Part shown: in pieces, positions 13,861-14,816 of the stretch | Layout of the letters: each line of letters starts with the position of its first letter | How positions within the stretch are numbered: the stretch's first letter is position 1 | Source: a virus | IMG/VR virus record: IMGVR_UViG_3300012924_000267 | Span: 1-20,203 of that record | Direction: 5' to 3' (one strand) | DNA: 20,203 nucleotides | Translations under genes and position numbers: made by a program | Notes under the pieces: generated by a model | Told to the model about the DNA's origin: nothing | Seen by the model: only the letters and a program-made list of their open reading frames with translations | The model's database searches: none

Positions 13861-14816
13861 ATGGGCACGTCGTCGTCGGGAAACTGGTCGTAGACTTCAC
13901 GGGTGGCAGGCGCTACGCGCCCGATGGTCACGTCGCGAACGCCGGGCGGCCCCGCGCGCGGCCGCGCCGCGTCGTCGCTGCTCTGCGCGAGCTTTCTCCG
14001 CCACACCCGTTCGGAGAACAGCGAACCGCTGAGGAACTGCAGGCTCTTCGTCGTGCGTGCTTCGAGCTCGGCCATCTCGAGCACGTGCTCGATCTCGCGC
14101 TCGGGGTTCGGCGACTCGGAGATCCGGCTCGCCAGCTCGCGGCGGTCGATGTCCTGCTCCGCGAGATGCAACGGCGACGGCAGGCCGAGCTCGATCGCGA
14201 GCGACTTGCGCGTCGCGTTGAGACGGTCCCACGTGCGGTGGTTGAGGCTCAAGCGCTGTGGCTGTTCCAGCGCCGGTGGCGGTGGGATCGCGGGCGCGCG
14301 CGCAGCGAGAGCGTCTGGTTTCTGATCTGGGGTAGCAACAGCAAGATCCGGAGCAACAGCAACAGCAACAGCAACAGCAACAGCAACAGGGTTCGATTTG
14401 CCGGAAGGGTCCGCTTCGCTTGGCGGGCGCTTTCGGCGAAGCGGGGGCTTCGATTTTGGCGAAGCGGGGGCTTCGTGCTGATTCCTGCGGACTTCCCCGC
14501 TCTTGAGTCCTCCGTTGCGGCCGCGCTCGCGAGCCGACATGAGGTATTCGATGCGCTCGCGTGCACCAGAGATGATGATCGACCCTCGTTCCCGAGACGC
14601 GAAGCCGCACGTGATCATGTGCTCGGTGAAGCCATCGAGCTCGGCCACCGTGTCGATCTCGTCCTGCGCGATCACGACGGTCACGGCCTCGTAGCAGATG
14701 GCCCAGACGTCCAGCAGCGCGCCCACGGTCTCGCGCCGCGACCAGCCGCAGAGCTTGCCCAGGCGCAGCACGCGCGAGTCGTGGCGGATGCTCGAGTCAA
14801 CGGACATGCGCGGCAT
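13857..14816 (-). CDS. Replisome organiser / origin-binding initiator
   Basis: 319 aa. ATG 14816 is used because CAGGGAG sits 6-7 bases upstream; an in-frame ATG at 14807 is the alternative. Residues 1-100 resemble the winged-helix N-terminus of phage replisome organisers (VDSSIRHDSRVLRLGKLCGW, then a segment ending in a Gly-Arg-Asn-Gly-Gly box). Residues 105-195 are a low-complexity linker, including a six-fold VA repeat and a basic Pro/Lys/Arg patch. The C-terminal 120 residues are helical with a Ser/Trp-Arg-Arg-Lys motif and end in acidic DDDVPI. Initiators of the lambda O / DnaD type bind repeats inside their own gene and recruit the loader, and the two loader genes follow directly. The family is assigned by layout and N-terminal pattern, not a signature motif. 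Confidence 0.65.
   Translation of the reverse strand: MPRMSVDSSIRHDSRVLRLGKLCGWSRRETVGALLDVWAICYEAVTVVIAQDEIDTVAELDGFTEHMITCGFASRERGSIIISGARERIEYLMSARERGRNGGLKSGEVRRNQHEAPASPKSKPPLRRKRPPSEADPSGKSNPVAVAVAVAVAVAPDLAVATPDQKPDALAARAPAIPPPPALEQPQRLSLNHRTWDRLNATRKSLAIELGLPSPLHLAEQDIDRRELASRISESPNPEREIEHVLEMAELEARTTKSLQFLSGSLFSERVWRRKLAQSSDDAARPRAGPPGVRDVTIGRVAPATREVYDQFPDDDVPI
14352..14387. repeat. Six perfect AGCAAC hexanucleotide repeats
   Basis: Six uninterrupted copies of AGCAAC (GTTGCT on the coding strand), with a further partial run at about 14333-14344. Within the initiator gene they encode Val-Ala six times. The stretch is visibly richer in A/T than its surroundings. Copy-number change would alter linker length but not frame. 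Confidence 0.9.
14411..14475. other. Candidate replication origin: clustered CGAAGC/GCTTCG repeats
   Basis: Five copies of the hexamer CGAAGC or its complement lie at 14413, 14437, 14447, 14460 and 14470. Two form identical 16-base hairpins CGAAGC-GGGG-GCTTCG (14437-14452 and 14460-14475) inside an 18-bp direct repeat 23 bp apart (14435-14452 and 14458-14475). A 9-bp inverted repeat, CCGCTTCGC/GCGAAGCGG, joins 14411-14419 with 14436-14444. Because 23 is not a multiple of three, the direct repeat is read in two frames (HEAPASPK and SKPPLRRK), so selection acts on the DNA rather than the protein. As in lambda O, the position in the linker of the initiator gene suggests the origin. Confidence 0.5.

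Follow-up and report, generated by a model that had tools for sequence, protein, structure and literature searches.

Can a phage carry its origin of replication inside the gene of its own initiator? The question is raised by a stretch of viral DNA of 20,203 base pairs (bp) from record IMGVR_UViG_3300012924_000267, hereafter the window. A first-pass annotation had noticed there a cluster of short repeats, in the linker-coding part of a replisome organiser gene, and had proposed that it is a candidate origin, as in gene O of lambda. The window is 100% identical, over its full length, to the reverse strand of bases 29-20,231 of a longer record, IMGVR_UViG_3300015242_000011 (G001, 39,017 bp; a G001 position is 20,232 minus the window position). 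Since the two ends of G001 have 77 bp in common, the genome closes as a circle of 38,940 bp, and its matches to terminase, portal and integrase point to a temperate tailed phage. We conclude that the repeat stretch is very probably the replication origin of this phage, embedded in its initiator gene: distant relatives keep the DNA layout while the protein encoded there changes, which makes the stretch most likely the phage's replication start. The features concerned are the following, in window positions:

13857 to 14816, minus strand: gene of the initiator (replisome organiser), 319 amino acids (aa), with the candidate origin in its linker-coding part; assigned from weak PHROG matches and 13 viral homologues
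14481 to 14816, minus strand: N-terminal domain of the initiator, 112 aa, predicted to be of winged-helix type and presumed to bind the iterons, based on homologues, an AlphaFold model and weak structural matches
14405 to 14475, minus strand: putative iteron region, with CGAAGC at 14437 and 14460, GCTTCG at 14413, 14447 and 14470, and a 16-bp inverted-repeat unit in two identical copies within a 23-bp tandem
14388 to 14394, minus strand: junction heptamer GAACCCT (coding strand), between the iterons and the T-rich tract, a word enriched in GC-rich linkers
14334 to 14391, minus strand: tract of T-ending codons, recognised by its codon endings, reading CCT, (GTTGCT)6, CCGGATCTTGCTGTTGCT on the coding strand and holding the six tandem AGCAAC; probable unwinding element

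Repeats in the linker-coding part of the initiator gene

The repeats listed in the first-pass annotation were all found. The five CGAAGC/GCTTCG hexamers lie within 14413-14475, a density of 5 per 150 bp in the linker, against at most 2 anywhere else in the 38,940-bp genome. The two identical hairpins correspond to a 16-mer, CGAAGCGGGGGCTTCG, present at 14437-14452 and 14460-14475, with no third copy in the window. The 9-bp inverted repeat is made of CCGCTTCGC (14411-14419) facing GCGAAGCGG (14436-14444 and 14459-14467). AGCAAC is found seven times, as a tandem of six (14352-14387) and a single copy at 14334. Finally, a 23-bp tandem duplication with 95% matches spans 14431-14475, and because 23 is not divisible by 3, the duplicated copies are read in two frames. 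An 18-mer around the hairpin is also present in one other phage contig (L009), but it lies there in an unrelated gene region and was judged to be due to chance.

From the two reading frames a function at the DNA level had been deduced, and this deduction held against a null in which synonymous codons were shuffled inside the gene, keeping the protein and the codon counts (2,000 shuffles). The window linker has 14 frame-breaking direct 6-mer pairs vs 2.3 expected (p=0.001), and 16 inverted 6-mer pairs vs 5.0 expected (p=0.0045); for both kinds combined, p=0.0005. As a control, the same test (300 shuffles) was applied to 272 windows of 60 codons, in genes of at least 100 aa of the same genome: 5 were at p<0.01 and 21 at p<0.05, meaning that the test is slightly liberal. 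The largest excess among the 272 was that of the initiator linker, 30 vs 8.2.

Next to the iterons, 18 of 20 codons end in T, compared to 5% outside the linker. The best 20-codon window in any other gene of the genome reaches 10/20, among 9,841 windows. Just 0.24% of positions in the 10-kb locus match the lowest stability found for 70 bp within the linker. On the coding strand, T stands at every third base for 13 steps, which is the longest such ladder in the genome, the next one (9 steps) being on the other strand. The AGCAAC run had been grouped with the origin repeats, and it does fall within the candidate origin region; as it sits in a T-rich tract whose wording changes between phages, it is probably part of the unwinding tract and not a set of additional binding sites.

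Layout of the locus in distant homologues

No close relative of the phage was found in the annotated collections searched. With the whole initiator as query, viral contigs yielded the same phage only, and neither annotated phages nor prokaryote genomes gave a match; a terminase alignment found none in the prokaryote genomes either. The N-terminal domains of the window and of contig L024 had no match among annotated phages, nor that of L031 among plasmids. Terminase relatives were used as a route: among 8 records, one (G008) contained an initiator match, an N-terminal domain homologue with 37% identity (E=1e-18), and none contained a loader match. Scanning with a two-domain alignment (window and G008; A3) gave 11 viral-contig loci, the phage itself and G008 among them. 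A wider alignment of the N-terminal domain added L044 (33% identity), and the GRxGGLKSG end of the domain, used as query, added L049 and L051, both far more distant and of low GC. With these 13 divergent viral homologues, the comparison set amounts to 14 distinct contigs including that of the window, picked by protein and not by repeats. Counts out of 14 take in every contig, and counts out of 12 (GC-rich) omit L049 and L051.

Conservation in relatives had been set beforehand as a test of the proposed origin, and the outcome favours it. Frame-breaking or inverted repeats were found at p<0.05 in 12 of the 14 loci, window included. Pooling the 14 loci, frame-breaking and inverted 6-mer pairs number 386 vs 88±14, the maximum of 2,000 shuffles being 141. 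The two other loci, L026 and L028, retain the tract of T-ending codons, and L026 also has an excess of AAGC (p=0.001).

The core of the repeats and their place recur as well. AAG[CG] is found 26-28 bp past the GG[LRI]K codons in 11/14 loci (not in L026, L049 and L051). Pooled pairs of AAG[CG] at distances of up to 60 bp number 127 vs 41 expected, with peaks at 11, 22 and 33 bp, 11 and 22 being the commonest. L027 has CGAAGC at 5347, 5358, 5369, 5380 and 5391, i. e. in 11-bp steps covering all three frames. L033 has seven copies in 173 bp, again in all three frames, and the four later copies are not in tandem. Related cores (TCAAGCA, CAAGGGT, CCAAGC) are present in L025, L030 and L044. The paired hairpins look peculiar to the phage of the window, the repeats of its relatives being mostly direct, often in steps of about 11 bp.

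Other words are shared by the linkers. GAACCCT is present in 8 of the 12 GC-rich ones; counting both strands, its density is 2.22 per kb there vs 0.033 per kb over the remainder of the loci. CCGGAT (31 copies, 10/12 linkers) and GTTCCGGAT (14 copies, 7/12 linkers) are strongly enriched. In the 25 codons past the junction, a boundary fixed by eye and rule after the sequences had been seen, 10 to 22 end in T, compared to a background of 5-15% in GC-rich genes, and this excess is at p<1e-3 in 13/14 loci (not L049).

The protein encoded by the linker varies by phage: VAVAVA, SASAPD, PDPVPD, PPPP or TVPDTVPD. The N-terminal domains of the 12 GC-rich loci have pairwise identities of 35-79% (median 50%), and third bases agree at about half of the identical residues, which means that recent common descent does not account for the shared words. 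We conclude that, on the sequences compared, the DNA just past the N-terminal domain is characterised in these homologues by short repeats with an AAGC/AAGG core, often about 11 bp apart and in different frames, by GAACCCT in 8 of the 12 GC-rich loci and by T-ending codons.

The initiator, its neighbours and known origins

Two genes follow that of the initiator:

13156 to 13860, minus strand: DnaC-like helicase loader, the next gene, its start overlapping the initiator (phrog_50, E=5e-19)
12824 to 13159, minus strand: protein of 111 aa, weakly similar to the G39P family of helicase loaders/inhibitors (PF11417, E=5e-4, narrowly missing the cut-off; phrog_9804)

The window initiator has no Pfam match, and its N-terminal 100 aa give weak matches to PHROG 'replication initiation protein' families. 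The N-terminal domain is 40-53% identical to that of the ten homologues of the alignment. Its AlphaFold model (pLDDT, the predicted local distance difference test, of 83.5) contains helices and a beta hairpin, and we read this predicted fold as being of winged-helix type. Compared to the PDB, the model weakly matches the initiator/Rep chains 4pql, 5kbj and 4pt7, which we take to be pSK41-type RepA, at Z 4.6-4.9 and 2.7-2.9 angstrom for 72 residues; unrelated folds score equally well, and a Foldseek search of the PDB gave no E below 0.001. In a viral structure library, four matches had E below 0.001, one of them a primosomal protein, and the matches also included DUF1376 proteins and replisome organisers. 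The profile of the domain, searched against the sequences of solved structures, gave weak IF-2 matches only (E 0.035-0.059), and a Pfam scan found no RepA_N domain in the window protein or the ten homologues.

As for the C-terminal part, no O-type domain was found in that of the window initiator by PHROG or Pfam, and a fold search with its model returned nothing useful. It is common to the window, L027 (38% identity) and L024 (32% identity). Elsewhere it is DnaD/O-like (L025, L030), of the Phg_2220_C kind (L026, L028, L031) or primosomal (L029). A DnaC-like loader lies directly downstream of the initiator in the window, L024, L030 and L044, and a DnaB-like helicase in L029; in L027 the gene after the initiator belongs to PHROG 9804, as does the 111-aa protein of the window. 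The same scan assigned no family to the genes that come next in L026, L028, L033 and L049; L025, L031, L032 and L051 were outside its range.

A few other elements were observed around these genes. GAC repeats at the initiator/loader overlap (G001:6231-6351) have the top raw frame-breaking repeat score of the genome. Further downstream, a 121-aa protein (12462-12827, minus strand) weakly matches a DnaJ-type CXXCXGXG zinc motif and a ribbon-helix-helix (NikA-like) end. The open reading frame at 8409-9713 (plus strand) appears by eye to encode a secreted repeat protein with a lipoprotein-type start, a possible cargo gene. In L028, positions 7334-8140 hold a 268-aa open reading frame of mostly Ala-Asp repeats, another codon-repeat gene. 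Finally, an array of about 45 GTAGCC-type hexamers lies beside the integrase end of the genome (G001:38711-38979; L007:19711-19979). The window end (20155-20203) is within or next to this array, and as the window and the longer record both stop there, the array probably broke the assemblies.

By its layout, the window element would work like the origins of lambda O, SPP1 gene 38, TP901-1 ORF13 and pSK41 rep. In lambda and the Stx phages, the origin consists of iterons and an AT-rich tract in the middle of gene O (PMC7466680). The order is alike, with iterons in mid-initiator gene, then the AT-rich tract, and replication gene P next; in addition, the C-terminal part of homologue L030 matches lambda-type O proteins. 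Unlike the window group, with a core of about 6 bp at steps of about 11 bp, lambda has iterons of 18 bp in steps of 20-24 bp (annotation of the lambda record). Its tract is A-rich on the coding strand whereas that of the window is T-rich, and the C-terminal part of the window initiator is without O match. SPP1 carries oriL in gene 38, and a second origin, oriR (PMC6316719). It resembles the window in having separate loader and helicase genes and differs by this second origin; the comparison is from the literature. In the lactococcal phages TP901-1 (ORF13) and Tuc2009 (ORF16), the replisome organiser binds repeats within the gene that encodes it, and these repeats are the origin (PMC8965321), but the repeat sequence is different, and TP901-1 has no coding-strand T ladder. 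In pSK41, the origin boxes are central in rep and bound by the N-terminal domain of its product (PMC5703833); the fold of the window domain weakly matches initiator/Rep chains, too weakly for membership, and these RepA_N replicons are plasmids of Firmicutes. Judged by sequence, the window initiator is in neither the lambda O nor the RepA_N family. What the window does have are several elements expected of an in-gene origin: short repeat copies in the initiator gene, an adjacent easily melted tract and a helicase loader in the same operon. No report of such a layout in uncultivated phages was found in the open-access literature searched.

The origin reading and its alternatives

The way in which such an origin would act can be proposed in steps. 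The winged-helix N-terminal domain would bind the CGAAGC-core repeats at 14405-14475, and assembly on them would melt the adjoining T-rich, GC-poor tract at 14334-14391. The C-terminal domain and the DnaC-like loader from the next gene would then recruit the DnaB helicase of the host to the melted strands, and helicase loading would lead to theta replication. As the linker protein tolerates almost any sequence, the underlying DNA can be kept for origin use. The lambda-like origin proposed in the first-pass annotation is supported by the layout of the homologues, the T-ending tract and the loader gene.

Several observations weigh against it. L026 (p=0.42) and L028 (p=0.33) have weak repeats, and the excess of AAGC+GCTT alone is at p<0.05 in just 8/14 loci. 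The repeats are phased at 11 bp to a modest degree (p=0.018 at this distance; taking the best period between 9 and 13, p=0.078), meaning that the phasing is suggestive and not proven. The AAGC motif and the tract boundary were both picked after the data had been seen. When the codon null is not applied, frame-breaking pairs are commoner in the windows starting at G001:6231-6351 and 17251-17311. The C-terminal part of the window initiator has no recognised family (Pfam, PHROG) or fold. Lastly, the minima of GC skew are 1.1-9.5 kb away from the repeats and confounded by gene direction. A skew minimum at the site was expected from the first-pass annotation, and the result leans weakly towards it: on the 38,940-bp circle, where the repeats are at 5,757-5,899, the raw minimum (7,020) is 1.1 kb and the detrended one (8,167) 2.3 kb from them, with a gene-direction switch close by. 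In G008 (repeats at 36,607-36,779), the raw minimum (34,180) is 2.4 kb off and the detrended one (27,128) 9.5 kb off. GC skew backs the origin weakly; it neither refutes it nor adds much.

Repeats might also have grown neutrally, by slippage and tandem duplication in the DNA of a floppy linker, without any function. Most of the window array consists of a single 23-bp duplication and a run of hexamers, and part of it may stem from tandem duplication; four of the five CGAAGC/GCTTCG hexamers derive from the single duplicated unit, and the same genome holds the unrelated 45-copy hexamer array at G001:38711-38979. We nevertheless consider neutral growth improbable, given that core, position, junction word and codon bias all recur in GC-rich loci whose N-terminal domains have pairwise identities of 35-79%, and in which just about half of the third bases are conserved where the residue is identical. 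Moreover, the four later copies of L033 are not in tandem, and the T-ending codons oppose the codon usage of these genes.

Another possibility is that the initiator binds this DNA for something other than replication, e. g. to regulate its own gene, or for packaging or partition. In plasmid initiators, iteron binding and autoregulation often coincide. Here, however, the site lies within the gene, a search of 14200-14600 gave no sigma-70-like promoter, and the one terminator-like stem (14429-14448), of a kind that shuffles also reach, is on the plus strand, opposite to the gene. There is no Rfam match, and a GC-poor tract beside iterons is a known origin layout, described for lambda/Stx (PMC7466680) and SPP1 (PMC6316719). 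A site of this other kind seems very improbable to us. That conservation concerns the linker amino acids, the DNA repeats being their by-product, is hardly credible: some residues do recur, e. g. an N-P pair or PDPVPD, but copies of the repeat occur in two or three reading frames, the linkers differ as listed above, and the synonymous-codon null removes the repeats.

Within the origin reading, the T-ending codons may have a role beyond easy melting. In oriC of B. subtilis, the DnaD Recognition Element is made of 5'-TnnT-3' motifs, in pairs on a single strand of the unwinding region (PMC10201434), with which the 13-step T ladder of the window tract may be compared. This element is chromosomal and opposite DnaA-trios; the ladder is broken or short in several homologues of the window group. 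Ladders of 9-15 steps are found in 6/14 loci, with 15 steps in L044, 13 in L028, 11 in L029 and L030, and 9 in L027, besides the window; L051 has 8, L025, L026 and L049 have 5, and four loci (L024, L031, L032, L033) have 3. The linkers of nine named phages (TP901-1, Harreka_1, elemoA, LBR48, Pd_22F, 055SW001, SpaA1, lambda and IPP28) have coding-strand ladders of 3 to 5 steps, and this counts against any general rule. It is conceivable, though we doubt it, that the T-ending codons form a sequence-specific single-strand element, i. e. a TnnT ladder in codon form, which would be read by the initiator C-terminal domain or the loader and would place the helicase on one strand, like the DnaD element. 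Domain, iterons, junction and ladder would then constitute an in-gene origin cassette, joined to different helicase-loading domains depending on the phage. In some of these phages the ladder could serve as a loading signal of the DnaD type, and it is no rule for all.

A candidate origin can thus be offered for an uncultivated, mostly GC-rich phage group without annotated relatives in the collections searched. Two codes would overlap in it, the origin keeping the DNA layout while the encoded protein drifts freely. If the T-ending codons do act as a strand-specific loading signal, these phages would hold a compact, in-gene version of a bacterial helicase-loading element.
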